NCBI GenBank assembly: GCA_903827375.1
Contig: CAIKHZ010000315.1
Location: forward strand, 1-64,000
From: Akkermansiaceae bacterium
GTDB lineage: Bacteria; Verrucomicrobiota; Verrucomicrobiia; Verrucomicrobiales; Akkermansiaceae
Reading direction: 5' to 3'
DNA length: 64,000 bases
Both the position numbers and the translations under genes were made by a program. Shown here piece by piece: positions 38,070 to 60,423 of this stretch. Under the pieces are notes generated by a model that was given only the letters and a program-made list of their open reading frames with translations, was not told the origin of the DNA and did no database searches. Position 1 is the first letter of the stretch; the number at the start of each line of letters is the position of its first letter.

Positions 38070-39608
38070 TCAGCGGTGCGGATTGCCTTGCCAGAGGTCC
38101 GCGATCACGGCGTATCCCGTGGCGTCCTGGTCCTTGAGTTCACAACGGATGAACGGGTAGTGATCGTTGACCAGGAAGTAGCTTTCCATGAGCTCGGCGA
38201 AGTATTCTTTCTCACTGGTCATGGCTGGCAGCGAGACCCGCTTGCCGTCGAAGCGGAGGACTGAGTTGTATTTGCCGTCCTTTTTTGCCTGGTCGTATGC
38301 GGCCGCAATCTTCCTGCCCAGATCGGAATCCTTTTGCGCGTGGCGATCATAGTAGGCGAGCGCCACTTGGTGGAGCACATCGGATTGCTGGAGCATGGAC
38401 CAGTCCATCATCCGTTGTGGATCCCCTATCTCAACCGCGCCCAGCTTGTCGGGATTCACTCCTTCGAGCTGCAACTTCGCACTGTCACCGCAATACTGCA
38501 GATAGGGCCCCTTGCGTCCATATTCGAGCCAGACCGGAATCGCGTGCAATTGCTTCTGCCCCTCGACGGAAATGAAATGATCGATCACGTGCAGCTTGTA
38601 GTTGAGAATCTTCACCATGGCTGTGCAGAGACCCGGCTGCCTAGCCAATTGCGGGTTGACGTAAACCGTCCAGCCATCGACGTCCCGTTTGTCGTATTGA
38701 CTGGTTGGGATATATTTCCCTTTGGCCGGGCCGGAGGCTTTTGCGGTGGCGGCTGCGGCTTGGGGGTGGTCCAGATAGGTGGCGAGGGATGTTTCCAGGC
38801 GAATAATTTGCCGGGGATCCACTCCCCAATACCGTTCAACCAGTCGTGCCATCGCGGGGTCCTGCTCGCGCAATTCGGCCCGCACAAACGGGTAGATGTC
38901 ATTGACTCCGAAATAGGCTTCTGAGCTTTCCGCCAGATATTCCATGCGGTTAGTCCGGGCGTAATGCGAGCCGACTCCGCCATCCCAGATCTTCACCTTC
39001 TCATTGATTCCGGATTTCATCATGCGCTGATAATTGGCCTCGCATTCTGCGTTGCCATAGTCATGACCCTTGCCGATGAAATGGTGGTCATAGCCGTGTG
39101 TCATCTCGTGGAAGATAACGAACGGATGGCGGTAGCTGTCACCGACATACCCTTTGGCGCTGAGCGAAATCATCGAATCCGGGTCCTTCGGCAGTTTGTA
39201 GCCGCGCTCAAGCAGCCATGCGGTTTCCGGATGATAGGACAGGCCGACCTTTTCATCGTACTCGATCCAGATGGGCGTGTGCTCCTGCAGGTTGCAGACC
39301 GCGGTGGCGGGAGCGGCCAGTTTGATCTGGTAGAGATCCCATTTCAAATGTCCGAAGGTTTTGGCCATTTGTTCGGGATACTGCTTGAGGACATCGCGAT
39401 TTGTGTAGATCGTCCAGCCCTCCATATTCCGAACTTCAAACCGCTCGGCGCTGACCGGCTGGACGACTGGGCCAGTCACCGGATCCTCATTTGCCTGCTG
39501 GGCTCTGGCGGTCGGCAGCAAGCAGATGATGGACCACAAGACTGAGGTGCGTCTTGTGATGGATTGTGGTTTCCGGAAATAACGACGAGGGGGGCACTTG
39601 GCTTCCAT
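38070..39608 (-). CDS. exported tandem-domain gluzincin-like metallopeptidase; second domain degenerate
   Basis: VIFHEMTHGYDHHFIG...RMEYLAESSEAYFGVNDIYPFVRAELREQDPAMARLVERYWG in domain 1; SDVLHQVALAYYDRH...KEYFAELMESYFLVNDHYPFIRCELKDQDATGYAVIADLWQ in domain 2; Met199 of ORF 38070-40202 followed by a signal-like SVLWSIICLLPTARA. Confidence 0.65.
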   Translation of the reverse strand: MEAKCPPRRYFRKPQSITRRTSVLWSIICLLPTARAQQANEDPVTGPVVQPVSAERFEVRNMEGWTIYTNRDVLKQYPEQMAKTFGHLKWDLYQIKLAAPATAVCNLQEHTPIWIEYDEKVGLSYHPETAWLLERGYKLPKDPDSMISLSAKGYVGDSYRHPFVIFHEMTHGYDHHFIGKGHDYGNAECEANYQRMMKSGINEKVKIWDGGVGSHYARTNRMEYLAESSEAYFGVNDIYPFVRAELREQDPAMARLVERYWGVDPRQIIRLETSLATYLDHPQAAAATAKASGPAKGKYIPTSQYDKRDVDGWTVYVNPQLARQPGLCTAMVKILNYKLHVIDHFISVEGQKQLHAIPVWLEYGRKGPYLQYCGDSAKLQLEGVNPDKLGAVEIGDPQRMMDWSMLQQSDVLHQVALAYYDRHAQKDSDLGRKIAAAYDQAKKDGKYNSVLRFDGKRVSLPAMTSEKEYFAELMESYFLVNDHYPFIRCELKDQDATGYAVIADLWQGNPHR

Positions 39609-39656
39609 TGCCAGTGAACGGTGTCGGGCACTTGGATCTTTCAGCACGGACCTACA

Positions 39657-39854
39657 CGACACCAACTGCACTGGGTGGTCCGCCGCCCTTCCCTCCCCAC
39701 TTGGTAGATCTGTATATCCGTGACTCGTTCCCCAGAAACGAATCTTGTCCCATAAGGCCTTTGTTACTTCGTGCTTTGCAATGTAGACCTTATTTACTGC
39801 AACATCGTGCAACGGAAAGTCCTCGCCTGGTTGAAAATGCCTAATCCCGGTCAT
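39657..39854 (-). pseudogene. fragment of a formylglycine-generating enzyme (FGE-sulfatase/SUMF1) domain
   Basis: FQPGEDFPLHDVAVNKVYIAKHEVTKALWDKIRFWGTSHGYTDLPSGEGRAADHPVQLVS resembles the N-terminal FGE segment; catalytic part absent. Confidence 0.65.
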
Positions 39855-40007
39855 GGGGAAATAGAGACTGTCCCGGACGGGAGCCTGGTGATTCCGATAG
39901 AAGTTTTCAAGTTTGGCAAGCATTACGCCAGGGTTTTTTGAATCGAAAAGATCTGTTGGTCCATTACCGAACTTCCGTCCGTTTTGAGTTTTCTTGAAAT
40001 TCTCGAC

Positions 40008-40549
40008 CGTCATCTGCCGACAATAGAACTGATGAAAACAGACCGGCAGCTCAGGACGGTTCCAGCATTTTCGCCAGCCACTGATGAGACTGTGCAGGTT
40101 GTTGTAATAGGTGAGGCCGCCGCCGATGTTGGAGTATCCTTGGTTCCAGATGCAGCCGCGGATGGCATAGGGGATCACGGGGTTGAGCTTGCCGTTGAAC
40201 ATCCCTTCTTACCCGGACCTTCGGTGATGATAATCCGTTAGGGAGCGGCATTCGCCTCGAGCGGGTCGAGTGTTAGCAGCCACTTGCCATCCTTGCCAGC
40301 CTGCGCGGTCTGCTGCTGTCCGGCAAATGCCACCGTCACCATGGTGCCCGGTTTGCTGCAGCCCCAGACTGGCAGTTTCATCTGGCGTTGCAGGATCGCG
40401 TTATCGGCAAAGGGTGCGCCCATCTCGATGGCGGGGCTGGGTTTAGCCGCAGGCTTGACCTCCTCCGCTCGCGCCACCAGGGGAGCGAGCAGCATGGCTG
40501 CGGCGGCGAGGGTAAGTAACATCGATGAGCGTGACAGTGGATGATTCAT
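40008..40549 (-). pseudogene. internally deleted sialate O-acetylesterase gene
   Basis: N-terminal piece MNHPLSRSSMLLTLAAAAMLLAPLVARA...GAPFADNAILQRQMKLPVWGCSKPGTMVTVAFAGQQQTAQAGKDGKWLLTLDPLEANAAP* then, out of frame, MFNGKLNPVIPYAIRGCIWNQGYSN...LISGWRKCW; the GQSNM block is missing. Confidence 0.75.
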
Positions 40550-40601
40550 ATATCTGCTAGAGGCATTCATGGCTTGTAGGGATATTTCTCGCAGGTCTGG
40601 A

Positions 40602-43600
40602 TCAGGGCCGGTTCCGTTTCATGACGATGAGCGGGGATTTCCAGCCGGCGGGGTTTTTCTCGCTGAAGCCGCCGGCTTCGACGGCGAGGTATTCCGTGCC
40701 GTCGATGGTCCGCAGCGTCATCTTGAGCGCCTGCCAGCGGGTCATGTCTATCAGGGTATCGCCGGACCAGATCCGGGTCGCCTTGTCTGTAATGCCATCC
40801 TCCTTGAGGGTAAGTCCCCCGAAGGGTGCGTTGTTGATGGGGGCCGGTTTGGCGGGATCGAAGGCTTCAAGCGCCGGAACCATTGCGACGGCGGTCCATG
40901 AACCTAGCAGCTGCGGGTTGGCGACGAACTTGCCGTCGTAGTGGAAGCGGTCGTCGGTGGTTTGGAACTCCTTGTTTTCAGGATCCTGCTTTTCCTGCCA
41001 TGCGGCGGAGAGCATCGGGATGACTGTCGCGGATTTTCGGAACGCGGCGTCATCCAGCGGCGGGAGTTTCATTTCCTCGATCCACATGCTGAAGACCCCC
41101 TGAGGGACCGGTGGCATGGTTGCAATCGCCCGGTCACCGTAGCGGAGGAAGGTGGTGGCGGCGAGGGTGACGGGGCCATTGCCAAACTCATCGAGGAGCT
41201 CCTTGGTGATGAAGGCACCGCGGAGGGTGCCGCCGCTGCCCCGGCCGATGCCTTCCTTGACCTCGACCAACGGTTTGCCGTTGAGGTAGAGCCGGTAGCC
41301 ATCGCCAGCACCAACATATAAGCCGGTGCTGACAACGATTCGATAGAGGTATCCCGGTTGGGGCGGCGGGAGCCGAAAAGTGCCGCGAACTAACAGGACT
41401 TCCTTATCCCACAGGGTGCGCATCGGGTCCGGAGAACTGAATCTGCCGCGCGGGTCCGGGTCGGTGACCACCTTGCCTTGATACTGGCCAAACGGAGCCT
41501 GCCCTTTTTTCCAACCGGCCTGGGCGGGGTCGAATCCGGGGGTGAACCAATTCTCCATTCCCTGCGGGTAAGTCACCTTGCGATAGCGCCATGGCGAGAG
41601 GTCGTATTTTTGCTTTTCCGGCGGATCGAAGGTGAAGAAATCCCAGCTGGCATCCTTCAGGTTCGGGTCGAAAAGATGCCAGTCGTAGTCGTGGACGCCC
41701 ACCTTGCGATAAAGCCCGGCCAAGGGGTCGAAGGCGGTGGTGATGTTGCTGCTTTGACGGGTGGCCTGGGCTTCGGCCAGCAGGTAATCGCGGTTATTGC
41801 CGATGTATTCGTACACGAGTTGGTCGCGGATGATCGGGCCGATCGCCTGTTGCAACTCGGGGCCGAAATTCGCCGGGTTGGCGGAGAGGAAGATCGAGGA
41901 GTATGGCAATAGTTGCTCTGGGTAGAGTTCCTTGCCGAGTTTGTAAAGCAGGTCATAGCCGCCTGGTGCGCCGGCCAAGGTGTTAGCTAGAAATTCCAAT
42001 TGTGAGTCATAGGTCTTGGTGATGTCCTGGCCGCCGGGGGCGGTTTTCACGCCATCGAAGCCCGTGTAGGCCGCCTTCAGGGACTCGACCGCCAGTTGTT
42101 GCACCTCGGGGGGGGCCGCGCGGATGCTGGCTAACATTTCCTCCCACTCGACTGAGCAGGTCGCGTTGAAACGTTGGCAGGTGCGCAGCGTTTCCCCGAT
42201 GGCAGGCAGGATTTTCTGATAGCAATGCGGGTCGGCAGCAACCCGGCAGAGCGCGTTGAGCGCGGCACTTTGCAGCCACCATTCCTGATGTTTGAGGTAG
42301 GGTAGAATGAGGTCGAAGTGCGAGGCGATAACGTTGGCAGGGAGCCGTCCGAAGAGATTGAGAACGGCGTCCTTCACCCACCACGATTCCTCCGGGTCCT
42401 TGAGCATTGCGACTAACAGGTCAAGCATCGCAGGTTGGACAAAGGCTGCCAGCGAATCACCCGTTAGATTGGTGGCAACCGCGTGGATCGCGGCGCAGCG
42501 GACGCGCACATCTTTGGAGCGGATGAACTCAAGCACGAGGGCGGGCCGGGCCTTGCCACCGCCGGGGATCGCCTTGCCGAGGTACAGGGTGTCGAGGCCC
42601 ATGGCCTTGCGGGCGGCTATCAGGCGCACGAAATGATCGGGGTGATGGACGTAGCGGCGCAATGTGTCGTCGCTGACGTCGGGTTGGGTCATGCGGACGA
42701 GCAACGGGCGACCGGAGTCATTGGCGAGGGTTTCGTTGGAAAAATCCGCACGTTTGCCATCGGGGAAGGCGGCCGGTTGGATCGAGTCGAAGGCGTCGTC
42801 GGCCTGGGTGCCCCACGGGCGCTTCGGGAGTGGGTAGGGCTTGGAGAATTTTGACGGCGGCGCGCCGGTGATGCGCAATGTTTTGCGGGGGATCGTATAG
42901 GTGAGCGCATAGCCGGCACCCCACGCGACGGTGTCATAGTCGGCCCCGCCGAGGATACCGAAGGATCCGTCGAAGCGGCGGGACAACTCGTAATGCCAGC
43001 GCCGGTTGTCCATGAACTCCCGGTATTGGGCCGGCATTTTCTGTTGGAGCAGGCCCATCGCAGCGCTGCGCCAGATTTCACCGATGCCGCCGCCGGTATG
43101 GCCGTGGAGCATGCAGGTGGTGGTGTAGAAGCTGGTCAGCGCGGCGGCATCGCGGGCACCGGCGTAAACTGACTGCTCGCCATTGGGTGTTAGAGACGCG
43201 GCAGCGGCCATGGCGAAGGCGAGGTTGCCGTTCTTGCCGTTGTCAACTAGGCCGTTTTCCGGCCGGTTGTCGCCGTAGGGATTGTTGCCTCGACCGGCCC
43301 AGCGGAAAAAGTGGCTCAGCGCCCCGAGCAGCGCATGGTCGGGCACGTTCGCGCCGCACTCCTTGGCCAGCAGCAGGAAGGTGACCACTGCGGTGCCGCC
43401 GGCGTTGAGGTGACCGCCGCCGCCGCCATAGGTGACCGCCGCCACCCCGCCGCGGCCGGCCCAACCGTCGAGGTATTGTGCCTTCACCGCGCTGTTCACC
43501 CAACCTTGGATGGTTGGCAGGACCTCCTGGTCGCCGGTGCGCAGGTAGTATTCACACAGTGGGATGCCACCGTAGCCAAGGTGCCAGGCGTAGGCGGGAG

Positions 43601-44237
43601 CGTTCCTGGCGCTGCCCCTCGCCCATCCTCGCACGGCCTCGAGGTCCTGTTCCTCGCCTGTCGAAAGTAGGAACAACATGCCGATGGCACCGAAGCTCTT
43701 GCCAGGTCCGGCCGCCCGCGTGTAGTCGGCAAAACCACGCACAATCATATCAGACTTGGGACAATTGAGTGGCCAGGTTTTGCTATAGGTGCCGAGCACG
43801 GGAATTTGGACGACGACTTCCTGGGGCGGGACCTCCGGCCCATCCCTGACAACCAGTTTGATCAGTCCGTCGGCGGCCTCTGCCGCGGTAATGACGTCGC
43901 CGAGTTGGATGCGCGGGTCGATGTCCTTGAGCTTCTGACCGTTGATCGTCTCGATAATCTGGCCTTTGTTAAGCTTGCCGGTTGCGGCTGCGGGAGAATC
44001 TGGCTCGACGTTTTTGACCTTCATCACGAAGGCGGGTTGGTGCAACTCAATGCCGATGCCGACCGGCCCAAATCGGTCGATTGTCTGGAGCGAGGCCGTC
44101 TCCGAAGGCGCTGTGGAGAACAGCGGGGGTACCTTGTAGAAGCCCGTGACGGGCGCTTCCGCCGCAGCGCAGTGGGCGACACAGGAGAAGAAAAGCATCG
44201 CCAGTGGAAGGCGAAAAATTCGATGGTAGTGGGTCAT
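40602..44237 (-). CDS. large exported PDZ + alpha/alpha-toroid + HEAT protein (DUF6288-like) with C-terminal galactose-binding-like domain
   Basis: ~1,211 aa; PDZ-like FVMKVKNVEPDSPAAATGKLNKGQIIETINGQKLKDIDPRIQLGD, GYGGIPLCEYYLRTGD, HEAT-like helices, C-terminal VHDYDWHLFDPN...GDGYRLYLNGKPLVEV...WIEEMKLPPL. Confidence 0.7.
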   Translation of the reverse strand: MTHYHRIFRLPLAMLFFSCVAHCAAAEAPVTGFYKVPPLFSTAPSETASLQTIDRFGPVGIGIELHQPAFVMKVKNVEPDSPAAATGKLNKGQIIETINGQKLKDIDPRIQLGDVITAAEAADGLIKLVVRDGPEVPPQEVVVQIPVLGTYSKTWPLNCPKSDMIVRGFADYTRAAGPGKSFGAIGMLFLLSTGEEQDLEAVRGWARGSARNAPAYAWHLGYGGIPLCEYYLRTGDQEVLPTIQGWVNSAVKAQYLDGWAGRGGVAAVTYGGGGGHLNAGGTAVVTFLLLAKECGANVPDHALLGALSHFFRWAGRGNNPYGDNRPENGLVDNGKNGNLAFAMAAAASLTPNGEQSVYAGARDAAALTSFYTTTCMLHGHTGGGIGEIWRSAAMGLLQQKMPAQYREFMDNRRWHYELSRRFDGSFGILGGADYDTVAWGAGYALTYTIPRKTLRITGAPPSKFSKPYPLPKRPWGTQADDAFDSIQPAAFPDGKRADFSNETLANDSGRPLLVRMTQPDVSDDTLRRYVHHPDHFVRLIAARKAMGLDTLYLGKAIPGGGKARPALVLEFIRSKDVRVRCAAIHAVATNLTGDSLAAFVQPAMLDLLVAMLKDPEESWWVKDAVLNLFGRLPANVIASHFDLILPYLKHQEWWLQSAALNALCRVAADPHCYQKILPAIGETLRTCQRFNATCSVEWEEMLASIRAAPPEVQQLAVESLKAAYTGFDGVKTAPGGQDITKTYDSQLEFLANTLAGAPGGYDLLYKLGKELYPEQLLPYSSIFLSANPANFGPELQQAIGPIIRDQLVYEYIGNNRDYLLAEAQATRQSSNITTAFDPLAGLYRKVGVHDYDWHLFDPNLKDASWDFFTFDPPEKQKYDLSPWRYRKVTYPQGMENWFTPGFDPAQAGWKKGQAPFGQYQGKVVTDPDPRGRFSSPDPMRTLWDKEVLLVRGTFRLPPPQPGYLYRIVVSTGLYVGAGDGYRLYLNGKPLVEVKEGIGRGSGGTLRGAFITKELLDEFGNGPVTLAATTFLRYGDRAIATMPPVPQGVFSMWIEEMKLPPLDDAAFRKSATVIPMLSAAWQEKQDPENKEFQTTDDRFHYDGKFVANPQLLGSWTAVAMVPALEAFDPAKPAPINNAPFGGLTLKEDGITDKATRIWSGDTLIDMTRWQALKMTLRTIDGTEYLAVEAGGFSEKNPAGWKSPLIVMKRNRP

Positions 44238-44308
44238 GGTAGGATCCGAGGATTCGTTTGCTGAAAACATCTCAGCTGCTTTGTGTGTCTTGAAAATCAG
44301 TAGTCCAG

Positions 44309-44342
44309 ATGCGGAATGACGAGGCTGACAAGCCGTCCGCAT
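44309..44342. other. intergenic hairpin upstream of the DUF6288-like gene
   Basis: ATGCGGAATGACGAGGCT-GACA-AGCCGTCCGCAT, arms pair with small bulges. Confidence 0.35.
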
Positions 44343-44419
44343 TGTGGAGATAACAAGGCAGGAGTGAGGGAAAAACTAACAAGTGACGGCGTTTTCATGC
44401 AGTTCATCCCATCAGGTTC

Positions 44420-45640
44420 TCATTTTGTCATATCCGCCATGGCATCGGCAAAGGCCTTGCCAATGCGGGCCATGATCTTCGCAGAGCCGAGATAATGGTA
44501 GGTCGCATTCGACACGCCGATCTCCATCAGCTTCCATTCTTCGGGGGTATAGACTGTTTTGAGAAACGCGTCGATGGCAGCCTTCTGTTCATCTTTCCCG
44601 AGTTTTGAGCCCTTGAGTTCACGCGATTTTTCCTTCACCTTCTGCCATCGGCACTGCAGTTCCTCCAACTTGGGCTCCCAGAACTTCTCGAGCTGGACGG
44701 CCGCCACCTTGCCCTTGAATTCCGGCATGGCGGCGGGTGCGGCCATCGCCTTGCGGAACTCTCGCAACCAGGGAATGTGAGGCGGATCGATGTCGCGCGA
44801 CCGCTCCGTATCGAGCTCCCCGTTAATACCTAACACCCCGATGACGGCTCGCATCTCCGGCGCGCCAAGGTCCTTGCGAATATCACGGATCAGACAAGCC
44901 AACAGACGGCTGTATTCATCGTATCCGCCGGGTTGCCCAGGGGTCGGATAGGTTTCCGTATTCCCGAAATCACTGCAGCCCTGCAGCCACACAAAACCAG
45001 CGACCTCGTATCCTTGGGCCGGGTCATACTCGGGATCAACCCGCTTGATATCACCCAGCACCAACTTGGCATGCGCGATCATCTTGCGGTAGCAATTTCC
45101 AGCGCGCTCGGCATATTCCGCCTCTGCCTTCCGGGTATCCTCGTTGTTCTTCCGCAGTTGCTCCAGGCGCTTCGCCTGCGCCGCATGCACCCCGGCACTG
45201 GGTGGCCGGAAATCATAGCACAAGTTCGTGCCGCCCCAAGATGTCTTGATGAGCAGGACCGGCTCGCCAAGATGCTCCTGCATATAAATACCAAAGGTCA
45301 GCTCGGGACCGATCTTTGGCCCGCTCCGCTCGGCACCGAAACCCGCCGTCAACTTCCCGAACTTCTCCTCCTCACCGGTGCCGAGTGACGAAATCCAGAC
45401 GTTCTCAATAACCCGCGGGGTGTCGTTCTCATTGACCATTTTCTTGAGCATCGGCGCGGTTGCCGGGTCCATCGCAAGGCATGGGAACGTGGTGAGCTTG
45501 CAGTGCCCCTGCATGTTCGACTGGCCCGCCATGAGATATACCTTCAGCGGCTTGGCTGCCGCCTGACTCGCGACCGCCGGCATCAGGCTGGCAACGACTG
45601 CGAAAATCGCACACCTCACACTCTGTCCAAAGTTTCTCAT
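44420..45640 (-). CDS. SASA-domain carbohydrate O-acetylesterase
   Basis: Signal peptide, KPLKVYLMAGQSNMQGH (block I Ser), GPELTFGIYMQEHLGEPVLLIKTSWGGTNLCYDFRPPSAG, FVWLQGCSDFGN; ATGA overlap with the upstream gene. Confidence 0.85.
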   Translation of the reverse strand: MRNFGQSVRCAIFAVVASLMPAVASQAAAKPLKVYLMAGQSNMQGHCKLTTFPCLAMDPATAPMLKKMVNENDTPRVIENVWISSLGTGEEEKFGKLTAGFGAERSGPKIGPELTFGIYMQEHLGEPVLLIKTSWGGTNLCYDFRPPSAGVHAAQAKRLEQLRKNNEDTRKAEAEYAERAGNCYRKMIAHAKLVLGDIKRVDPEYDPAQGYEVAGFVWLQGCSDFGNTETYPTPGQPGGYDEYSRLLACLIRDIRKDLGAPEMRAVIGVLGINGELDTERSRDIDPPHIPWLREFRKAMAAPAAMPEFKGKVAAVQLEKFWEPKLEELQCRWQKVKEKSRELKGSKLGKDEQKAAIDAFLKTVYTPEEWKLMEIGVSNATYHYLGSAKIMARIGKAFADAMADMTK

Positions 45641-48087: not shown

Positions 48088-48142
48088 AGCTGAAGGTTTC
48101 ACAGATCGAGGATTTTGATATCTATTAGATCGAATGCAAGGA

Positions 48143-49396
48143 TCACTGGCGTTTGGCATCCCCCGCGCCATCCACCGCGCCTTGCTGCTGCTTCATCAAA
48201 TCCGCCATGGCCTCGGCAAACGCCTTGCCAATCTGTGCAATGATCTTTGAGGAACCTAGATAATGATAGGCCTGGTTGGATTTCCCCTTCGTGAGAATTT
48301 CCTGCTCCTTCGGCGTGAAGAGTTCATCGTTGTATTTCTCCACCGCCGCCCTTTGTTCCTCAGCGCTGAGCTTTCCCTCTTTAGCCAACTTCTTGGACAA
48401 TCCCTTGACTTTCTCAGACCTGGCGACCAATTCGCCCAATTCAGAATCCCAGTACTTCTCAGTTAGCACAGCCTCAACATTCCCCTTGAATTCAAGCATC
48501 CCGGCGGGAGCTGCCATTGCCTTGCGGAAGTTCGGCAATATCCCCCGGGTCCGATCCGGCTTGGCGGCTTCGATTTTCTCGGTGACGGGGCCGTCGATTC
48601 CCAACACACCAATCACGAATGGCAACTTCGGCGCGTCGAGATCCTTGCGTACATCACGGATGAAATGACACAGCAGATCCCTATAAAGATCGTAACCGCC
48701 GGATTTGTTCCTGTCTGGATAGACATCGCTGGCAACCAAGTCATTGAACCCCTGGAACCAGACAAAACCAGCCAACTCGCACCCCTCGCTTCTGCTATAG
48801 GCCGGATAAACCTTGGCGGGATCAGCGAGCACCTTTTTAACATCATCGATCATCTCGTGGTAAAAATGGCCGGTGGCCACCTTCTTCTTCTCCTTATCCT
48901 CCGCGCTCTTCTTATCGGCGGACTTTTCATCCCACACGAAAGGACCGCCACTTGGAGACCGGAAGTCGGTGTGCAAACTCTTTCCACCCCAGGCAGTCTT
49001 GATAATTAAAATCGGCTCGTTGATCTGCTTCTGCATATAAATCCCGAAAGTGAATTCCGGGCCGATTTGCGGACCATGCCCCTGGGCACCAAAGTCTGTC
49101 GTCAGCTTGCCCTGCTTATACAAAGGAGTCGGCCCCTTCTCCCCTCCACCTTTGGAAGTGAAAAACGCGATGTGGACGTCATCACACACGCGTGGAGTTC
49201 CGTCGGCATTTCGCATTTCCTTGAGCAACGGCGCGGTCTTGGGATCCATGCCTATATGGTCAAATGTGCTGACCGCAGCATGTCCCTCCATGTTGGATTG
49301 CCCGGCCAGAATGAATACTTTAAGCGGCTTGGCGGCCGCCTGACTGGAAACGCAAGCCGTCAAGCCGACAATTCCTGCGATGATGATACGCTTCAT
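48143..49396 (-). CDS. SASA-domain carbohydrate O-acetylesterase
   Basis: SQAAAKPLKVFILAGQSNMEGHAAVSTFDHIGMDPKTAPLL, GPEFTFGIYMQKQINEPILIIKTAWGGKSLHTDFRSPSGG, FVWFQGFNDL; close paralog of 44420-45640. Confidence 0.85.
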   Translation of the reverse strand: MKRIIIAGIVGLTACVSSQAAAKPLKVFILAGQSNMEGHAAVSTFDHIGMDPKTAPLLKEMRNADGTPRVCDDVHIAFFTSKGGGEKGPTPLYKQGKLTTDFGAQGHGPQIGPEFTFGIYMQKQINEPILIIKTAWGGKSLHTDFRSPSGGPFVWDEKSADKKSAEDKEKKKVATGHFYHEMIDDVKKVLADPAKVYPAYSRSEGCELAGFVWFQGFNDLVASDVYPDRNKSGGYDLYRDLLCHFIRDVRKDLDAPKLPFVIGVLGIDGPVTEKIEAAKPDRTRGILPNFRKAMAAPAGMLEFKGNVEAVLTEKYWDSELGELVARSEKVKGLSKKLAKEGKLSAEEQRAAVEKYNDELFTPKEQEILTKGKSNQAYHYLGSSKIIAQIGKAFAEAMADLMKQQQGAVDGAGDAKRQ

Positions 49397-49428
49397 ATTC
49401 TGTGCCGTGTGTCTCATTGGTATGGTAG

Positions 49429-52245
49429 TTAGCCGTGGTTGATCGAAAATTGAATGACTGAGGTGGAATCGAGTTCCAACCAGATGACCAGAGATTGCTG
49501 TCCGTTAGTGTCGCGGACGATGCCCTGCCGCAATCCCGTGCCGGGGGGGACAAGCTTGCCATTGATAGAAACTCGCGCCGCGCTATCGGGTTGCCAGTGG
49601 CTGATGACGAAACACGGGTTGTGGACCGGAGTGTCTGTGGAACCCTCCAGCGCACACGAGATGACATTGTCAGTTGCCGCCAGCAGGTAGGCCCGCTGCG
49701 AGGAATCGTACCCCTTGGTTTCGCAGCCGCTTGCTGCAGTGAGCGCCGGAGGATGCTGCCATGACTTCGCCAGAGGCACGAGTTTCGTTACCTCTTGGTT
49801 AGTGAAACCATATAAAATGAGACTGCCGGTATGATTCGCCCCGCCAAGGGCCGCGTGCGTCACGCGGTCGTCGGAAACGGCGTAGCGTCCATCCGACGGG
49901 TTCAGTCCGACGGGCCAGTGGTTCCATGGCCCGGCAAATGGATCGGGCGTGTGCTTGGACTGCTCGTCGGCACCCCACGTGGTGATTTCAGCCCCTTCCT
50001 GATAGATCGAAAAGATTTTCCAGATGGACTTGAAGTTGATTCGCTTGATGCAGGCGTCCTTGATGGGATTAACTGGCACATGATTAGGTGGTGCCCACGT
50101 TAGATCCGCACTTTTACCGCTGAGATTGGCGAGACTGAGAGCCGTTAGCTCCATATTGTCGAGGCAGGAGGTGCCCGGCTGGGAAAGAAATTGTGTATCC
50201 TGCCACTCGCCGCCCGGAGTGTCCACAAAACGGACTCCGACCCCGTCCGGGTAAATCGTATAATATTCGTCGGCCCAGACGTTCGTACGCGGAAACACAT
50301 ATCCGACGTCGATCGCCGGGTAACGCCAATGAACGACCACCCGGGCATCGGTATTCTCTATCAGTTGACAGAAGTTGAAGCGGCCCCGCTTATCCGCCAT
50401 GTGCTCGGCGCAGCCGTGCGGTCCACTAATCTCCCAACTTTGGTCTGCCATCCACCGGTTATTCTCAGTCACCCAGCCTGAGCCAAGGCCAGTCCCCTGC
50501 CAGAACACCACGCGGCCAGGCGTGGTATCGAAGCGCACCACGATGTCTCTATAGGCACTCGGCCGCCAGAGGTTGTCCCAAAGTTCGTGATACCTCAGGG
50601 TTTGGCAGGTCGCGCCAAATTTCCGCGCGGGCGAGCCGTCCGCATCACCCGGCAGGATCCTCCTATCCAAATCGGGCTTGGTCAACTCCGCAGCCGACGG
50701 GCAGAGCGACTCAAACGACTTGGCGATTTCCCCGGCCGACAATGCGCGGTCGTGGATGATGACCTCGTCAATGAGTCCCTCGATGCCGTAAACGAGCGGC
50801 ATGTTATCTCTGGCGGCAAACTTGCTATGCGATACGGGATCCGATACGCGCTGGGCGTCGCCGTTCAAGCCGATGAGCAGGTCCCGGTCCGGCAGCGCGA
50901 TGGGTCCCGTCGCCGCCTTGGAGGAGACAAGCCGGCCATCGACGTACAGGCACATCCGGCCACGGCCATAAGTGGCAGCAAGATGCGTCCATCGGTACGT
51001 CGGCAGAGCATCCTCCTTGCGGACAGTTGCCTTGGCCTCTAACACACCACCGCCGACTTGCTGGCCGTTGACTTTGAAAATCGGACGGCCGTAGGGATCA
51101 ATACCTAACATATATCCTTCGACCTTCCATGGCCTGTACACATACGGGTCGCGATAGCCATGCTTGTAATCCTCCGCGCAGATTGGCTCGCCTGCCGATT
51201 GGTGGACAATACCGGCGTCATTCCACGGATAGGCACCAAGGGCGACCCATGCCTCTAGCGTCAACTCATCCTTGATAGCCGGGGCCTTGTCCTTGGGCAA
51301 TGTTACCTTGGAGAAATAGCCATCGAACGCCAGAGCCGTGCCGGAAACTCCCATTTTCCAAAGTGTCTTATTGCCAGAGATGGGACAGGCGATCCCATGA
51401 ACCGCATCGATCGTTTCATCGCGGTTAGGTGAAAGTCCATCGTTGAACTTGAACCACGCCGCCGGAGTACCAACGTCGGCATTCCGCAAGGCTGAGCCGG
51501 CAACTGCTGGGGCAAGCTTGCTAGCATGCCTAGGTTGGGTCAACGAGAGTTCAGAGATTCCCTCGGGCGACAGAGCGAGCTCCTGCACCGTGGCGTTCGC
51601 GGTGTCGTTGAATTCGTCGAGCCTCGATGTACCGATGCGTATTTCCCGCCGCACTTTGCCATCCGGCGTGACGATGAAGAGTTCGTGTATCTCCTCAGTC
51701 ATCACAACACTGGCCGGATCCGGTACATGCCGCCAGTGAACAACGATCCGCTCGGGCCGGTCCTCGACCAAGCGGACGTAGGAACAAAGACACATCGGGT
51801 CCTCGCGACTTTCAGCAAGCGGCTTGAACAGATATTTGCCGCGAGCCGTCTGGAAGTACGGCAGATATCCAGTGGCCCTGCTGAACACAAGCCGCCTTCC
51901 CTCCGCGATGTTGACGACCAGATCGGCGTACTTCCCCCAACGAATCTGCCCCGGCTTGGGCGGCTTGGGCGCTTCATCGGCCTTGTCCACTTGGCTGGCG
52001 GCAAACGTCTTGGCAGCATTGACGGGGATTCGTCCGAGCACTTCCGATGAAGGCGGCTGAGTGTAGTCGAGCTTCGTGTGATAGGCATAGAAGTCCGCGC
52101 CCTGCACAAAACCAACGAGTGCCGGAATATGCGCTGCAACAAGCGAAATTCTTAATGAAAGCTTCAACCAAAAAGGGTAGATAAATACGATTGTAGCGGC
52201 GTTTCTATCCACGGATTTCAGATTGAAGAGGGATGCGCTGATCAC
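49429..52245 (-). CDS. exported LamG/concanavalin-domain protein with duplicated flanking beta domains
   Basis: 938 aa, GTG start; AWFKFNDGLSPNRDETIDAVHGIA...LTLEAWVALGAYPWNDAGIVHQ...YRWTHLAATYGRGRMCLYVDGRLV...YGIEGLIDEVIIHDRALSAGEIAKSFE. Confidence 0.8.
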   Translation of the reverse strand: MISASLFNLKSVDRNAATIVFIYPFWLKLSLRISLVAAHIPALVGFVQGADFYAYHTKLDYTQPPSSEVLGRIPVNAAKTFAASQVDKADEAPKPPKPGQIRWGKYADLVVNIAEGRRLVFSRATGYLPYFQTARGKYLFKPLAESREDPMCLCSYVRLVEDRPERIVVHWRHVPDPASVVMTEEIHELFIVTPDGKVRREIRIGTSRLDEFNDTANATVQELALSPEGISELSLTQPRHASKLAPAVAGSALRNADVGTPAAWFKFNDGLSPNRDETIDAVHGIACPISGNKTLWKMGVSGTALAFDGYFSKVTLPKDKAPAIKDELTLEAWVALGAYPWNDAGIVHQSAGEPICAEDYKHGYRDPYVYRPWKVEGYMLGIDPYGRPIFKVNGQQVGGGVLEAKATVRKEDALPTYRWTHLAATYGRGRMCLYVDGRLVSSKAATGPIALPDRDLLIGLNGDAQRVSDPVSHSKFAARDNMPLVYGIEGLIDEVIIHDRALSAGEIAKSFESLCPSAAELTKPDLDRRILPGDADGSPARKFGATCQTLRYHELWDNLWRPSAYRDIVVRFDTTPGRVVFWQGTGLGSGWVTENNRWMADQSWEISGPHGCAEHMADKRGRFNFCQLIENTDARVVVHWRYPAIDVGYVFPRTNVWADEYYTIYPDGVGVRFVDTPGGEWQDTQFLSQPGTSCLDNMELTALSLANLSGKSADLTWAPPNHVPVNPIKDACIKRINFKSIWKIFSIYQEGAEITTWGADEQSKHTPDPFAGPWNHWPVGLNPSDGRYAVSDDRVTHAALGGANHTGSLILYGFTNQEVTKLVPLAKSWQHPPALTAASGCETKGYDSSQRAYLLAATDNVISCALEGSTDTPVHNPCFVISHWQPDSAARVSINGKLVPPGTGLRQGIVRDTNGQQSLVIWLELDSTSVIQFSINHG

Positions 52246-54674
52246 TTCTGGACTCCCAGTTGCGGAATCTTCATCTCTTCCAGTGAAACACTCAATGGAG
52301 GGCCAACCGGAATGAAAGCACCGGCTGTGCGGTTGCTCATCGGAAAATGACTCACCGCGATGGTCACCTTGCCACCTTTGAATTCATCGCGAAAATCAGT
52401 CCAGACGTGCCCGCCGCGAGGTTTTCTCCCTTCTCTCCGCCAAGCGGCAACGCCGACCCTCGAGTCTGACAGAAGCTTGCCGTTGATATAGATTGCATAA
52501 CCCTCACCCGAGTTGGCATGCACGCTGCCCGTGACCCTGATGCGGTAGCGGTAACTCTCCTTCAACGGCGGCAGATCAAAACTGCGGCGCATCAGCAACA
52601 CGTCCCCCTTGAATCCCGTTTTTGGCTCACTCCGCTTAGCGCTCTTGTACCAATCCGGGGTGGGGACCGGCGGTTCGTCACCTAGCACCCCGAACGGTGA
52701 CCCGCCGCTTTTCCAAGCGGCTTGCTTCACGTCAAAGTCGGGCGAAAACCACTTCTCCATGCCGGCCGGGCAGGTCAGTTTTAGGTCACTGATCCCCTTC
52801 CCTTTCTCATCGGTAGCTGGCAGATCAAAGCTATAGTAATCCCACAACATGCCATCGATATCTCCGCCGATAGGTTTCCAATCGTAGTCATGGATACCGG
52901 CCACACGGAAATATTCGGCAGCTTCGTCCAAGGTGTCATCTATATATGACGGCGTTCTTGTCGGCTTATCCCCCTTGAGCGCCTCCAACAATGACGGTTC
53001 ATATCGCGGACTGGTCACGAATGCCACCAACGCGCCATCCAAAATAATCGGTTTGACCGCCGCCAGCGAGGCGGCTTTCTGATCATCGGTCGGCCCTAGC
53101 TTCGCAGCATCAGCCGCCACTTTGGTGGCTGCTAACGCTTGCCTATCCGACGTCGAAACCTCCTCAGCCTTGCCGCCGAGCATACGCACCATGGCCCGCC
53201 CCATGGTCTCGCCGACGAGCATGTATGTCTCTGCATTGCGGTTGTAGTGATAGTCCTGTTCGCGGGGTGACTCGATCACTTCACGCCAGAAATCCCGGGT
53301 ATCAACCGATGCCACCGTGCCTGCAAACTCCGGATGCTGCTTGGGATCGCCCACTGCCATCTGGGCTTCCCAGACGCCTTTCCATGGCCCGTCACCCAGC
53401 TGGCACCCATGGAATCCGACCGTTGCCACGACCACCGGCATCTTCGGCACCCGAAACTCCTTGCGAAGGTCGTTGATGAGGTTAACCAAATTCTTCTCAT
53501 ATTCTTCCTTTGTCGAACCGCTGTCCTTATGTCCTTGAAACCAACCGAAGCCAGCTATCTCATAACCCTGCCCCTTGTAACCCGGTACAACCTTGTCAAT
53601 CTTGTCGAGCGTTTCATGAACCCCCTTGACCATCAAGCGGTACTCCAATCCTTCGTTTTCGTCAGCAGATTCCGCCCTGCCACTCGACGGCGGCCGGAAA
53701 TCAAAACCCAATGAGCGGTTTCCTTGCGCCGTCTTGATCAGCAATACCTGCTCGTCATGATAGGTACCCATGACATAACCAAATCCGAGTTCCGGGCCAA
53801 TCGATTTCCCATTGTTCGAGGTTGCGGAAAGCGGCGAACCAGCACCTTCCGGATGCAAACGGGCTTCCTTGTAAAACACGTCGTTGCGCATAGTCCATTT
53901 GCCAGCATCATCCAGCAGATAGGTGAATTTATGGTCCTGCTTCGTCACCGTCTCGAGGTCGCCCTTGCCCTCCAGGTCAACTTGCTCCAACCAGAACGCC
54001 GCTGAACCGCCCTTGAAGTAGGTGATCGTGATCGGATACCGCTTGCCCGGGTCTAGGGCCACCTTGGCGAGCACTGGCTTGCCGCCCGGTTCCTTGCGGT
54101 ACACCTCTTTGCCTTCGAGGAGAACGACATTGTGACTGCTGTCTTCAAATCCCGCATGAACGGTGTAGGTTCCGGCGGTCGGCACGTCAATGAATGCGCT
54201 AACAACCACTGTGTGAGGACCATCCATCGCAGGCAGTTTTTCGGACGCCGTCCCCAAGGCCACCGTGGCTGTCTTGGCGGGTGCCGATCTGGTGCAATCC
54301 ACCTTGACGTCGAAAGCTCCCTTGATGAGTGAGACCTTGGCGCCTTTCGAGGCGTTCGCATCGGCCGACTGATAGATACCATGAGCGGCGAGTCCGAAGC
54401 CGCCGATCGGCATGACGCCGGGGATAATGGCCGGATCAGCCGAGAGAAAAACACTCGGATAGAGCGGCCGGGCACCGCTGATATCCCCCATACCAACCAT
54501 GTTGGATTGTCCGGCAAGAATATATACCTTGACCGGCTTGGTGACATCACCCGGCTTGCCATCGGGCTTGGGCAAATTTACAGGAATGTCATTTGCCGCT
54601 GTGGCTTGAAGAACAAGTCCCGCCAGCGCTACTGCGGCGAACTTGCATAGGGATGTTCTGTGAGTCATGTTCAT
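52242..54674 (-). CDS. SASA-type esterase with an inserted PA14-like region and C-terminal galactose-binding-like domain
   Basis: KPVKVYILAGQSNMVGMGD, then TAGTYTVHAGFEDSSHNVVLLEGKEVYRKEPGGKP...YPITITYFKGGSAAFWLEQV, then GPELGFGYVMGTYHDEQVLLIKTAQGNRSLGFDFRPPSSGR, FGWFQGHKDSG. Confidence 0.82.
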   Translation of the reverse strand: MNMTHRTSLCKFAAVALAGLVLQATAANDIPVNLPKPDGKPGDVTKPVKVYILAGQSNMVGMGDISGARPLYPSVFLSADPAIIPGVMPIGGFGLAAHGIYQSADANASKGAKVSLIKGAFDVKVDCTRSAPAKTATVALGTASEKLPAMDGPHTVVVSAFIDVPTAGTYTVHAGFEDSSHNVVLLEGKEVYRKEPGGKPVLAKVALDPGKRYPITITYFKGGSAAFWLEQVDLEGKGDLETVTKQDHKFTYLLDDAGKWTMRNDVFYKEARLHPEGAGSPLSATSNNGKSIGPELGFGYVMGTYHDEQVLLIKTAQGNRSLGFDFRPPSSGRAESADENEGLEYRLMVKGVHETLDKIDKVVPGYKGQGYEIAGFGWFQGHKDSGSTKEEYEKNLVNLINDLRKEFRVPKMPVVVATVGFHGCQLGDGPWKGVWEAQMAVGDPKQHPEFAGTVASVDTRDFWREVIESPREQDYHYNRNAETYMLVGETMGRAMVRMLGGKAEEVSTSDRQALAATKVAADAAKLGPTDDQKAASLAAVKPIILDGALVAFVTSPRYEPSLLEALKGDKPTRTPSYIDDTLDEAAEYFRVAGIHDYDWKPIGGDIDGMLWDYYSFDLPATDEKGKGISDLKLTCPAGMEKWFSPDFDVKQAAWKSGGSPFGVLGDEPPVPTPDWYKSAKRSEPKTGFKGDVLLMRRSFDLPPLKESYRYRIRVTGSVHANSGEGYAIYINGKLLSDSRVGVAAWRREGRKPRGGHVWTDFRDEFKGGKVTIAVSHFPMSNRTAGAFIPVGPPLSVSLEEMKIPQLGVQK

Positions 54675-54731
54675 ATATTTTCTGCTAACTTGTCTTCGCT
54701 GCCAGATGTCACAATGCCAAATTCAAGATTT

Positions 54732-56846
54732 TCACTTCACCGGCCTGAGCGTGAATTCTTTGACGGTCACCCCGCGACTTCCGTCTTGGAGCATGAAGTG
54801 GATAACATTCTTGCCGCTGACCAAGGAGAGTCCTACCGGCTGGGTCTGCTGCCACTTGCCAACGGTGTAGGGCACCCCGATTTCAACCGGCTCTTTGGCA
54901 TCATTCGATGCAAACTGGAACTTCTGGCCTTCTTGTACTGTCACCACCGAGGCAGTCAGAGCGTACCCGCCAGCGTGCGCTGCCTCAACTGCGTACTCGG
55001 CCGTGAAGCCACCACCGCAATGCAATTGCATACCGCCCCCGAAACTCTTCATGGCCACCATGGGTCCCGTTGCCTTGCTGTAAGCCACTACCGGAATGAT
55101 CATGGCTCCGTCCGGTCCGACTGATACCTTCTGGTCCACTTCAGCCAATTTGGACTGCTCAACCTTGGCCTTTTGCTTCGACTCATTGGCCTCGGCAAGC
55201 TCCTGACCGAGCGGCCCTAACCCCACCGCCGTGGCCGCAATCGCAGCCGTTTGGTAGTGCGCCATGCCGCTCCAGAAGCCACCGGCGACGTGTTGACGGT
55301 CGTTGTATGCTTGCTCGCCAAGGGCGCGACTGATCCACTGTGCCCGCAGCACTTTCCTGTAATCTTGTGGTTTAGCCCGCGCCTGCGTCTCCAACAGAAA
55401 GTCTGACCCGCTTCGCGGAGTCTCATCCTTTTCCCACCAACTGTGCGGGAAACCCGCGCCGAGGTTAACCACCCAGCCTTTCGGCGTCCAATGACTCAGT
55501 GCAGCATGAGCGTGCTGGGTCACGCCCCAAGTCGGAATACCAAAACTGCGCAACATAAACCGCCCAAAGAACGCGCGACGGCCACACACTCCCCCATCCT
55601 TGATGATATTCTGATAGTTCTGGAGCGATGGCAGATCATACTTTTGGTTTTGTGAACCATACTGGACATCCGTCCTGACGGACATGGAGTAGCGCCAGCC
55701 ATAGTCCGGGTTATATATATGATCGGGCCGGTAGTTTCTGAGCATCTCTCGCCCCCATGCCAATATGGAATCCGGCGCATCGCAATCGACAACTTTCCGA
55801 TATTCCCAGACACTGAGGTTTCCAAAAACAGAATCCAACTCGCCATCGAGGCTCGCCTTTTCATAATGCAGATAGCGTTTCACTGGGTCAACGATTGCCG
55901 GCGCATTGACTTGGTCCTGAGGGTTGGATTGAGGGACCGGCACGGCATGTTCGAGACTGGTGGCCAGCGCCAAGCGCTGAAATGCCCCTTCGGAGGCCTT
56001 CTGGCTAGCATGTTGGATCGCCACGTATATCTCCATCGCCCGGCCGTACTTGCCGAACTTGGCACCTCCCGATTCGAGCATCTGTTTCATCAAGGCGGGG
56101 TCAGTCAAAAGCTTTTCTACCAGAGCCTCCTGCTCCTTACCCTGTTGGGCGAACCCGGCCAAGCCCTGCGGCGTCGCTTCGGCGAGGACGGCACACTTCA
56201 CGAGTTTCGCGTCCGATTGGTCACTCGATAGGAACGGCTCGATTGCCGTCAGGATGCCAGTGGCTGCCGCTTGCTCATCACTGCGTGCCTGGGCCAGGGC
56301 GGCCTGGGCTGCCTGATTCTCTTGGAGCACCCTCGGCTCGTCGATTTTCGCCTTGGCCACCGCATCCTGAGACTTCCTGAGTTCGATGGCTCCTTGGTCT
56401 CCGTCCGCCTTCGCCTTGGCTAACTCTTCCTGCGCTGCCTGCCGGGCTGCATCATCTTTCGCATGCTTGATCTTCTCCTGAGCAGCGGCCACAGCCTTGG
56501 CCGCTTTGCTGACCCAGCCCTTCCGATGCTCCAACAGACCCATCGGCTTCTGGTTGGCATCCAAGGCCGACTGCTTGGCGTTAGCCTCTGCCAAGGCCGC
56601 TTTGGTTGCACCACGGGCCTTCTCCAAAGCCGTCCTGTGCGGCTCGCTGACATTCGGCAGGGCTTTCCCAACTTCTGCCTGCAAGGCTTTGAGCAATTCG
56701 GCATATTTGGCTAACAACCTATCTCCTTCCGCAGTGAGCGAAGTCTCCACCTCAGCTTTCTTTGCGGCTGCAGTGACGTTCATAACACCCAATGGCATCA
56801 CCACCAGTAGGCACCCCATAACCAACAGTCTGTTCATTTTCATCAT
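54732..56846 (-). CDS. exported coiled-coil + transglutaminase-like protein
   Basis: N-terminal Ala/Lys/Glu/Gln coiled coil; KDGGVCGRRAFFGRFMLRSFGIPTWGVTQHAHAALSHWTPKGWVVNLGAGFPHSWW (candidate Cys/His), C-terminal VSGKNVIHFMLQDGSRGVTVKEFTLRPVK. Confidence 0.7.
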   Translation of the reverse strand: MMKMNRLLVMGCLLVVMPLGVMNVTAAAKKAEVETSLTAEGDRLLAKYAELLKALQAEVGKALPNVSEPHRTALEKARGATKAALAEANAKQSALDANQKPMGLLEHRKGWVSKAAKAVAAAQEKIKHAKDDAARQAAQEELAKAKADGDQGAIELRKSQDAVAKAKIDEPRVLQENQAAQAALAQARSDEQAAATGILTAIEPFLSSDQSDAKLVKCAVLAEATPQGLAGFAQQGKEQEALVEKLLTDPALMKQMLESGGAKFGKYGRAMEIYVAIQHASQKASEGAFQRLALATSLEHAVPVPQSNPQDQVNAPAIVDPVKRYLHYEKASLDGELDSVFGNLSVWEYRKVVDCDAPDSILAWGREMLRNYRPDHIYNPDYGWRYSMSVRTDVQYGSQNQKYDLPSLQNYQNIIKDGGVCGRRAFFGRFMLRSFGIPTWGVTQHAHAALSHWTPKGWVVNLGAGFPHSWWEKDETPRSGSDFLLETQARAKPQDYRKVLRAQWISRALGEQAYNDRQHVAGGFWSGMAHYQTAAIAATAVGLGPLGQELAEANESKQKAKVEQSKLAEVDQKVSVGPDGAMIIPVVAYSKATGPMVAMKSFGGGMQLHCGGGFTAEYAVEAAHAGGYALTASVVTVQEGQKFQFASNDAKEPVEIGVPYTVGKWQQTQPVGLSLVSGKNVIHFMLQDGSRGVTVKEFTLRPVK

Positions 56847-57106
56847 TTTGCTTGTTTTGGCAACGCCAATCCCAACCTAGCGCAGACGAGGATTGACCAT
56901 CTCACAGCACTCCTTGTCAAGGACGGTTTCTTTGCCAACCAACCCATCTACTGGGCTGGTCTAGAGGTTACCCGCGAATGGCTTCTGGAGAGAATGATGA
57001 AAGGCAGTGGTATCAACACCTCGGAGCCGTTTTATACGGCCTTGTCGAAAGCCTCCCGCAAGAGATTTCGTATGATAGAGAACTGCGGGTTGCCAAGGCG
57101 GGACCG

Positions 57107-57190
57107 AGCCTGTTCACGAAGAAGCGTTATTGCGATTTCGAACTGGAGTTGGATTTCAAGATGGGCGCGAAGGCGAAGGCGAACAGCGAC
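57107..57190 (+). pseudogene. relic of a DUF1080 (3-keto-disaccharide hydrolase) domain
   Basis: SLFTKKRYCDFELELDFKMGAKAKANSD resembles the LWTKKxYGDFxLxLEWKxxxxANSG signature; flanks do not continue the domain. Confidence 0.5.
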
Positions 57191-57305
57191 CGGTGGATCA
57201 GGTGTTTGGCAAGCCTGATTCGAAATGATCCCGGTTTGATGATTCACAAATTGAGTGTTGGCAAGGTGGGGCGGATGGGTCATCTTGTCGGTGAACTCCT
57301 CCGTT

Positions 57306-57590
57306 ATGAAATCAAGACAACCCTTTCAAATTTCACGGGCAATCAGCAGACTCGCCTTCGCCATCATCGCCGCATCCACGACCAGTTGTGTGGTGGTGCC
57401 GCCGCCGACCCGCGTTGTCGTTAGACCTTATCATCCACACGACGTGGTGGTTCAAGCAGATGGTTACGTGGCAGTGCTTCCCGGCGAAGCGGTCATTCGT
57501 TTCTGGCACGGTGAGCGTTGCTGGTATTACCACGGCCGTTACTACCGCCGCCACCCCCACCGCCAAGGATACATCCTGATCCGCTCGTAA
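57306..57590 (+). CDS. small predicted lipoprotein
   Basis: 94 aa: MKSRQPFQISRAISRLAFAIIAASTTSCVVVPPPTRVVV (lipobox-like Cys), YYHGRYYRRHPHRQGYI C-terminus; start trimmed. Confidence 0.55.
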   Translation: MKSRQPFQISRAISRLAFAIIAASTTSCVVVPPPTRVVVRPYHPHDVVVQADGYVAVLPGEAVIRFWHGERCWYYHGRYYRRHPHRQGYILIRS

Positions 57591-57634
57591 TTCCTGGAGG
57601 TTCGAATCTGAGTCGCTGATCCAACCATTCTGCC

Positions 57635-58216
57635 ATGATCATCAATCCCGACCCGGAGAACTCTGTCCGCCTTGAGGCTCTGGCACAGCAGGCGAAACGG
57701 TACGCCCTGCACATGATGCGCAGCACGGGTAGTGTCCCGCCGACGGTGATCGCTGACACCGCGGACGGCTTCATTTTCTGCATGCCATCCGGGATGCCGG
57801 ATGAGGCGGCGAAAGACCGCTTCGCCGATATCGCAAGGTTCCTGGCCATCGCCCACAACGCCCGTGCCATCGTGATGGTGGTCGAGGCGTGGGTGAGGAT
57901 GGCCAAGCCCGGCATCCAGCTGGATACCGTCACGCCTCCGTCGCAGTCACCGGACCGCCAGGAGATGGTGGTGCTGATGCTGGAGGATCAGGCGCGGTCC
58001 TCCACCGGCTTGCTGCCAATCATGCGTGAAGATTCCGGGGTGTTCCGGGAATTTGGACAAAGCCCGGAGCTCAATTTCACTTCCACCACTGGCCGCTTCA
58101 CCGGACTGATGCCAAAGCACATGCCAAGTGCCGACGAGGTGGCCATGGCGAAGACCCAACTCCTGAAACTCGGGATGTGCGTGGTGAATCAGGGAAATGA
58201 TCCATCGCTGAATTGA
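57635..58216 (+). CDS. conserved-looking hypothetical cytoplasmic protein
   Basis: 193 aa, no signal peptide, protein-like composition (RFADIARFLAIAHNARAIVMVVEAWVRM). Confidence 0.55.
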   Translation: MIINPDPENSVRLEALAQQAKRYALHMMRSTGSVPPTVIADTADGFIFCMPSGMPDEAAKDRFADIARFLAIAHNARAIVMVVEAWVRMAKPGIQLDTVTPPSQSPDRQEMVVLMLEDQARSSTGLLPIMREDSGVFREFGQSPELNFTSTTGRFTGLMPKHMPSADEVAMAKTQLLKLGMCVVNQGNDPSLN

Positions 58217-58329
58217 AGGGATAGCCCGCAGCCACAGGACTGCGCTCGGGGGCGGCCTCAAGGTCGGCCTCTGTGGGCCGGGAGACACCGAATATTTACC
58301 CTCAGCCAAGGCGCCTGAAATGGAATATC

Positions 58330-58375
58330 CGCTACAGGGCACCTTTTGCGCAGCGACGGTCACAGACCGCCGCTA
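58330..58375. repeat. short intergenic repeat-like segment
   Basis: CCGCTACAG occurs twice (~58329 and ~58370), flanking the mini-hairpin CGGTC-ACA-GACCG at 58357-58369. Confidence 0.35.
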
Positions 58376-58399
58376 CAGAAAGTCTGACAGGACAGAGTC

Positions 58400-60409: not shown

Positions 60410-60423
60410 CGGCGATTCATGGC

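Follow-up and report, generated by a model that had tools for sequence, protein, structure and literature searches.

The window analysed here, the first 64,000 nucleotides of contig CAIKHZ010000315.1 in assembly GCA_903827375.1, raises the question of what a row of seven genes, three of them encoding SASA-type esterases and two encoding members of DUF6288, a protein family without described function, does for its host. Our preferred answer, to which we assign a probability of about 0.6, is that the row is an exported glycan-processing operon, namely, an esterase-rich variant, poor in glycoside hydrolases (GH), of the loci in the Planctomycetota-Verrucomicrobiota-Chlamydiota (PVC) bacteria that resemble polysaccharide utilization loci (PUL), in which DUF6288 would be a toroid enzyme working beside O-acetylesterases. 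We read the locus in terms of glycan degradation because of the linkage of SASA and DUF6288 genes, the GH and sulfatase genes around homologous loci, the predicted toroid fold, a carbohydrate-binding module (CBM) of the CBM6/35 type, and purifying selection.

The host assembly (6.1 Mb in 370 contigs) is labelled Akkermansiaceae, and since tens of kb of the window align at 92-94% identity with the Akkermansiaceae metagenome-assembled genome (MAG) Ki1-2-2m_bin-203, its sequence places the host as an Akkermansiaceae species, a lake bacterium related to Akkermansia. The same MAG carries a sister locus, L037, that is 94% identical to that in the window, and the ratios of nonsynonymous to synonymous substitutions (dN/dS) below come from the comparison of the two. 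The seven intact genes run on the minus strand from 56846 to 40602, and are given in transcription order, followed by a gene remnant and a further gene; open reading frame is abbreviated as ORF.

54732..56846, minus strand: gene 1, exported coiled-coil protein with a transglutaminase (TGase)-like core and a C-terminal CBM6/CBM35 (ORF, profile match, conserved Cys/His; dN/dS 0.16)
52242..54674, minus strand: gene 2, SASA3 esterase; insert within the catalytic domain, further domain at the C-terminus (aa 539-806) (PF03629, E 3.4e-18; dN/dS 0.10)
49429..52245, minus strand: gene 3, LamG protein (PF13385, E 5e-17; dN/dS 0.14)
48143..49417, minus strand: gene 4, SASA2 esterase (Pfam, E 9e-20; dN/dS 0.13)
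45637..48171, minus strand: gene 5, DUF6288b, with PDZ, alpha/alpha toroid and HEAT (PF19805, E 6e-141; dN/dS 0.09)
44420..45640, minus strand: gene 6, SASA1 esterase (Pfam, E 2e-16; 99.5% identical to the L037 copy)
40602..44342, minus strand: gene 7, DUF6288a, large, with PDZ, toroid, HEAT and a C-terminal domain at aa 833-1100 (Pfam, E 2e-118; dN/dS 0.12)
40021..40549, minus strand: remnant of the fourth SASA-type esterase gene, the eighth in the row (blastn comparison with L037; intact L037 copy, SASA E 3e-10)
38070..39449, minus strand: tandem M90-like gluzincin (weak Pfam M90 match, E 1e-3)

The intergenic gaps in transcription order are 57, -4, 11, about 55 (-29 by the longest ORF), -4 and 77 bp, gene 5 possibly having its real start at 48087, downstream of the longest-ORF start. 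As every gap is at most 77 bp or a 4-bp overlap, the seven genes are likely to form one operon and one transcript; scans for promoters and terminators found nothing in excess of shuffled sequences. All seven genes have dN/dS values of 0.06-0.16, indicating purifying selection, and we therefore take them to be functional rather than debris. Our analysis agrees with an initial annotation of this DNA in its calls of three SASA proteins (Pfam E 2e-16 to 9e-20), two PDZ-HEAT proteins of the DUF6288 type (Pfam matches to DUF6288, PDZ and HEAT), and one LamG protein, in the 4-bp overlaps of neighbouring genes at 45637-45640 (genes 5/6) and 52242-52245 (genes 2/3), and in the export of the products, as signal-like N-terminal segments were found by inspection in all seven proteins.

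The three intact SASA proteins resemble other members of PF03629, a family of sialate O-acetylesterases and acetylxylan-esterase-like proteins, in their Pfam matches (60.7, 71.7 and 66.5 bits versus a curated cut-off of 24.8), in the motifs GQSN, WxQG (WFQG in SASA3) and YHY, which are present in all three, and in a weak match of SASA2 to the solved esterases 2apj and 1zmb. SASA1 and SASA2 are 49% identical, and the SASA2 family has 52 members across 35 loci. SASA3 differs from the rest of the family in having an insert in its catalytic domain, previously described as PA14-like and not recognised as such by Pfam, and an extra C-terminal domain of about 270 aa, which it shares with the DUF6288 protein of gene 7 at 36% identity. 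This domain also occurs on other SASA and DUF6288 proteins in the loci L025, L079, L095, L101 and L107, which suggests that the proteins bearing it act on the same substrate or bind the same partner. As a separate observation, SASA1 (44420-45640 versus L037:12536-13756) has a dS of only 0.037, versus 0.15-0.30 for its operon neighbours, suggesting recent local recombination or gene conversion.

The association of SASA with DUF6288 is not confined to the window. A DUF6288 search of GTDB genomes yielded 79 loci, the titled ones coming from PVC bacteria (Verrucomicrobiota including Kiritimatiellia, Planctomycetota, and Lentisphaerae). As these are best matches that are phylogenetically non-independent, and their ORFs were called mechanically, the linkage figures are indicative; counts over 74 loci exclude the sister genome and a further relative. 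A SASA gene directly adjoins a DUF6288 gene on the same strand in 23 of the 74 loci and lies within 5 kb in 32 of them, and 38 of the 41 SASA genes within 5 kb are co-oriented with their DUF6288 neighbour. The SASA share of DUF6288 neighbours falls from 19.4% through 7.5, 4.6 and 4.6 to 0% over successive distance bins to 10 kb, with 27 of 139 genes within 1 kb being SASA versus 5 of 213 at 5-10 kb (Fisher P=1e-7), and nine of ten sampled genomes of 3-8 Mb have only 7-29 SASA matches each. Genomes drawn separately repeat the linkage (L128, L130, L133 and L135), with SASA beside DUF6288 in L128 and L135. Overlaps of 4 bp join 10 of 39 SASA/DUF6288 pairs versus 49 of 387 other same-strand pairs; this is suggestive of a specificity for such pairs, which we do not press. 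Judging from these gene neighbourhoods, the combination, in places with a TGase-like gene, recurs in many genomes across PVC phyla beyond chance.

The surroundings of the homologous loci point to glycans. On one strand, L042 carries SASA, TGase-like and DUF6288 genes together with sulfatases and GH95, while L091 contains two DUF6288 genes, several SASA genes, a sulfatase-cluster gene, a homologue of the LamG protein, and GH95. The order is GH106, GH28/GH5, DUF6288, SASA and sulfatase in L133, and SASA, DUF6288 and GH78 in L130; L131 has two sulfatases, DUF6288 and a GH95-like gene, and contig C267 of the host's own genome has SASA, GH95 and DUF6288. GH95, GH78 and GH106 comprise fucosidases or rhamnosidases. 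Sulfatases lie within 5 kb of DUF6288 in 23 of the 74 loci. Verrucomicrobiota are known as consumers of fucose- and rhamnose-type sugars with PUL-like loci (PMC8857213, PMC13174399), and these fucosidase/rhamnosidase/sulfatase loci share with the window an exported degradative gene row and the lack of SusC/D. The likeness extends to the GH95, GH78, GH106 and sulfatase genes of the homologous DUF6288 loci; however, the window operon itself has no recognised GH or sulfatase, and SASA and DUF6288 dominate it. A PUL of the Bacteroidota type would be expected to contain a SusC/SusD pair and a regulator, none of which was found by Pfam among the eight window ORFs and ten flanking genes scanned. Thus, the statement that the locus holds no GH, polysaccharide lyase (PL), SusC/D, sulfatase or regulator was borne out by the Pfam scan of its ORFs, but the conclusion that it does not look like a standard PUL was not, given the GH95, GH106, GH78, GH28 and sulfatase genes of its homologues; moreover, since PUL-like loci without SusCD have been described in Verrucomicrobiota (PMC8857213), the absence of SusC/D is uninformative for the window.

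Both DUF6288 proteins are clear full-length members of PF19805 (396.6 and 470.7 bits versus a curated cut-off of 26.3), that of gene 7 being divergent, and a search of 5.39 million papers found none that mentions the family. An AlphaFold model of gene 5, built from an alignment of 58 sequences, has a mean pLDDT of 89 and a pTM of 0.89, and consists of a PDZ domain, an all-helical toroid, and HEAT repeats, the PDZ and HEAT parts being supported by sequence as well. As a whole-protein Foldseek search was swamped by HEAT solenoids, we modelled the toroid with the PDZ domain alone (residues 60-500; pLDDT 90.7). Its matches in the PDB comprise squalene-hopene cyclase, the methylmannose polysaccharide hydrolase MmpH, GH88/GH105, AprG, AGE-type epimerases, GH76, GH47 and complement thioester domains, all with E above 1e-3 (best 2e-3) and TM at most 0.47. 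The central domain of DUF6288 thus shares a predicted fold with (alpha/alpha) toroid carbohydrate enzymes such as GH88, GH76, GH47, MmpH and AGE-type epimerases, but it differs from them in having no sequence similarity to them, no fold match below E 1e-3, and additional PDZ and HEAT domains; on the evidence of the model, the likeness is at the fold level only. Among the residues invariant in the 58 homologues are E262, H295, Y307, N311, K351, Y356, H359, H365, N368, R401, H405, W414, W436 and R442, which lie mostly in or beside long loops of the modelled toroid, where an active site would be the simplest reading of them.

The host genome holds 21 full-length DUF6288 matches in its 6.1 Mb, a large and unexplained expansion. 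Several of these ORFs encode 1442-3464 aa, and those scanned carry PA14, Big/Ig-like, YDG, LamG and cadherin-like repeats, architectures that are consistent with export. In genus g2 of the same family, which has genomes of 2.2-3.5 Mb, many members encode one divergent DUF6288-type protein of about 1480 aa (L126, L127), with a PDZ domain and an NPCBM-like match, in a different gene context.

These data bear on the first alternative, namely, that DUF6288 is a non-catalytic scaffold whose PDZ and HEAT domains recruit SASA proteins, sulfatases and others to the cell surface or the substrate, the toroid being a binding or structural element. PDZ and HEAT are indeed protein-interaction domains, giant paralogues fuse DUF6288 to PA14, Big, LamG and cadherin-like repeats, and toroids of the complement C3d type, which have no enzymatic action on sugars, are among the fold matches. 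However, the His, Glu, Lys, Asn and Arg residues that are invariant in the family are concentrated in the loops of the toroid and not in PDZ or HEAT, as one would expect of an active site. We consequently regard a scaffold as unlikely, and favour from the model a DUF6288 enzyme, that is, a hydrolase, lyase or epimerase.

Several results weigh against an enzymatic, glycan-degrading interpretation. The likeness of the toroid to known enzymes does not go beyond the superfamily (TM about 0.45, best E 2e-3); squalene-hopene cyclase and the complement thioester domains, both among its matches, do not act on sugars. No sequence link from the DUF6288 toroid to any solved toroid and no Pfam GH match were found, and a profile comparison of DUF6288 with GH95 by hhalign was negative (probability 0.7%). 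The Pfam scan detected no GH, PL or sulfatase in the window operon, SASA is lacking within 5 kb of DUF6288 in more than half of the 74 loci, and sulfatases are not significantly more frequent near DUF6288 than among distant neighbours (P=0.10).

A second alternative is the processing of a glycoprotein, which the initial annotation had preferred: esterases would deacetylate the glycans, and the TGase-like protein and, elsewhere, gluzincins would cleave or modify the peptide. Gene 1 itself has no Pfam match to PF01841, and a paralogue matches Transglut_core only weakly (E 0.11). Cys421 and His447 are invariant among six homologues, so the earlier transglutaminase-like call is plausible but weak, and catalysis is uncertain because no third residue of the triad is conserved. 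Its C-terminus (about 55124-54735) matches CBM6/CBM35 in comparisons of a profile with the sequences of solved structures (E 1.3e-15 and 1.5e-7), the latter value being to a domain of exo-beta-D-glucosaminidase, besides matches to CBM6 entries, and one paralogue scores above the Pfam CBM_6 cut-off. This module argues for a putative glycan-bound role of gene 1. TGase-like homologues adjoin SASA in L042, where the protein is 57-58% identical to gene 1, in L102, and on the host's own contigs C95 and C202. The last two (L117, L119) each bear a paralogue with a CBM6-like C-terminus directly beside SASA, and no DUF6288 match was found on either contig.

The gluzincin, on the other side of the operon, appears to be a neighbour. 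All eight ORFs of the initial annotation exist, but the one at 38070-40202 is not a single gene: its frame crosses a broken fourth SASA gene and runs on into the tandem gluzincin. At the equivalent position L037 has an intact SASA-type gene of 987 aa that closes the row, as found by blastn against the window, so that the decayed SASA of that annotation is real; the window copy has lost 560 bp internally, the ends being joined at 40204/40205. The tandem gluzincin likewise appears to be real, with an intact HEMTH in its first copy and a degenerate one in the second, though its match to Pfam M90 is weak (19.1 bits, under the curated cut-off of 26.2), whereas a fragment taken for a formylglycine-generating enzyme (FGE) had no Pfam match at E<=0.1. 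Because the homology between the window and L037 stops at 40021, the gluzincin is probably a separate gene, and a protease no longer counts towards the conserved set. A homologue on the host's contig C304 (30% identity; M90 40.4 bits, E 3e-10) is placed after two DUF6288 genes, and L084 has a third gluzincin domain between DUF6288 genes; the gluzincin is possibly an occasional partner of DUF6288 loci.

Glycoprotein processing can thus draw on the conserved Cys/His core of the TGase-like protein, which stands beside SASA in five places, on the gluzincins beside DUF6288 in C304 and L084, and on the DPP-IV-like and M24 peptidases of L059. However, in the sister genome the gluzincin is not part of the conserved set, it is present in only three loci, no third transglutaminase catalytic residue is evident, and TGase-like genes occur in only 4 of the 74 DUF6288 loci. 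We consider this explanation quite improbable. The last alternative is that SASA and DUF6288 are two exported families, each abundant on its own account, that come to be adjacent because PVC genomes are rich in both; the host genome contains dozens of matches to SASA besides its 21 DUF6288 genes. This alternative is disfavoured and hardly credible in view of the strong distance decay, the co-orientation, and the low SASA density in most sampled genomes.

Returning to the glycan-processing operon, we propose that the SASA proteins would strip a polysaccharide or glycoprotein containing fucose or rhamnose of its O-acetyl groups, whereupon the DUF6288 toroid would act on the exposed chain as a hydrolase, lyase or epimerase, with its PDZ and HEAT domains serving for docking. 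Anchored to the glycan through its CBM, the TGase-like protein might act on a linked peptide or amide, and other loci of the genome would provide the sulfatases and the GHs for depolymerisation. The glycan-deacetylating part of the apparatus envisaged earlier thus stays probable, given the conserved set of exported SASA proteins, and its proteolytic end is dropped. A more specific proposal, which we put forward tentatively, is that DUF6288 constitutes a new GH or PL family of PDZ/HEAT-bearing (alpha/alpha) toroid enzymes that cleave carbohydrates, are often paired with O-acetylesterases, and may supply a missing step in the breakdown of polysaccharides that are acetylated and rich in fucose or rhamnose. 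PVC bacteria rank among the main consumers of recalcitrant polysaccharides containing these sugars, and a large part of their genes for exported proteins has no assigned function. DUF6288, with its 21 copies in the host, its expansion to about 20 in some PVC genomes, hundreds of matches across PVC, and a position next to acetylesterases and within GH/sulfatase clusters, is a testable candidate for such a carbohydrate-active enzyme family; loci of this kind escape an annotation that looks only for GH, PL and sulfatase genes.

In gene 3 an unassigned domain occurs twice, once on either side of LamG (internal repeat, E 1e-6); LamG, like the CBM6/35 of gene 1, is a module of the glycan-binding type. 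The homologue in L091, inside the DUF6288/SASA/GH95 locus, is 35% identical to the gene 3 protein.

Horizontal transfer of the cassette was suspected, as the flanks differ between the window and L037: the left flank of L037 (cbb3 FixO) is absent from the window's own genome, and most of the window's right flank (57000-63000) has no counterpart in the L037 genome. However, we rejected this idea because the window at 16-36 kb is also 92-94% identical to the same sister genome; the 94% identity of the locus is best taken as vertical inheritance, judged by this comparison, and the missing right flank may reflect rearrangement or incompleteness of the MAG. A search of viral contigs found no relative.

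Elsewhere in the window, a dispersed repeat of about 150 bp (27065-27213) recurs in some 30 complete or partial copies, most of them 85-92% identical, throughout the sister genome G299, and a second short repeat lies at 58347-58379; both resemble miniature inverted-repeat transposable elements (MITE) or repetitive extragenic palindromic (REP) sequences. An ORF of 193 aa (57635-58216) has DNA copies of 80-88% identity at two sites in the sister genome, in which the DNA around it mostly has no match. Finally, the locus is adjoined at 30369-33319 by a pair of genes, PSCyt2/PSD1 and DUF1501, of a sort typical of PVC bacteria, and in freshwater Verrucomicrobia PSCyt genes are reported to lie near sulfatases (PMC5615132).

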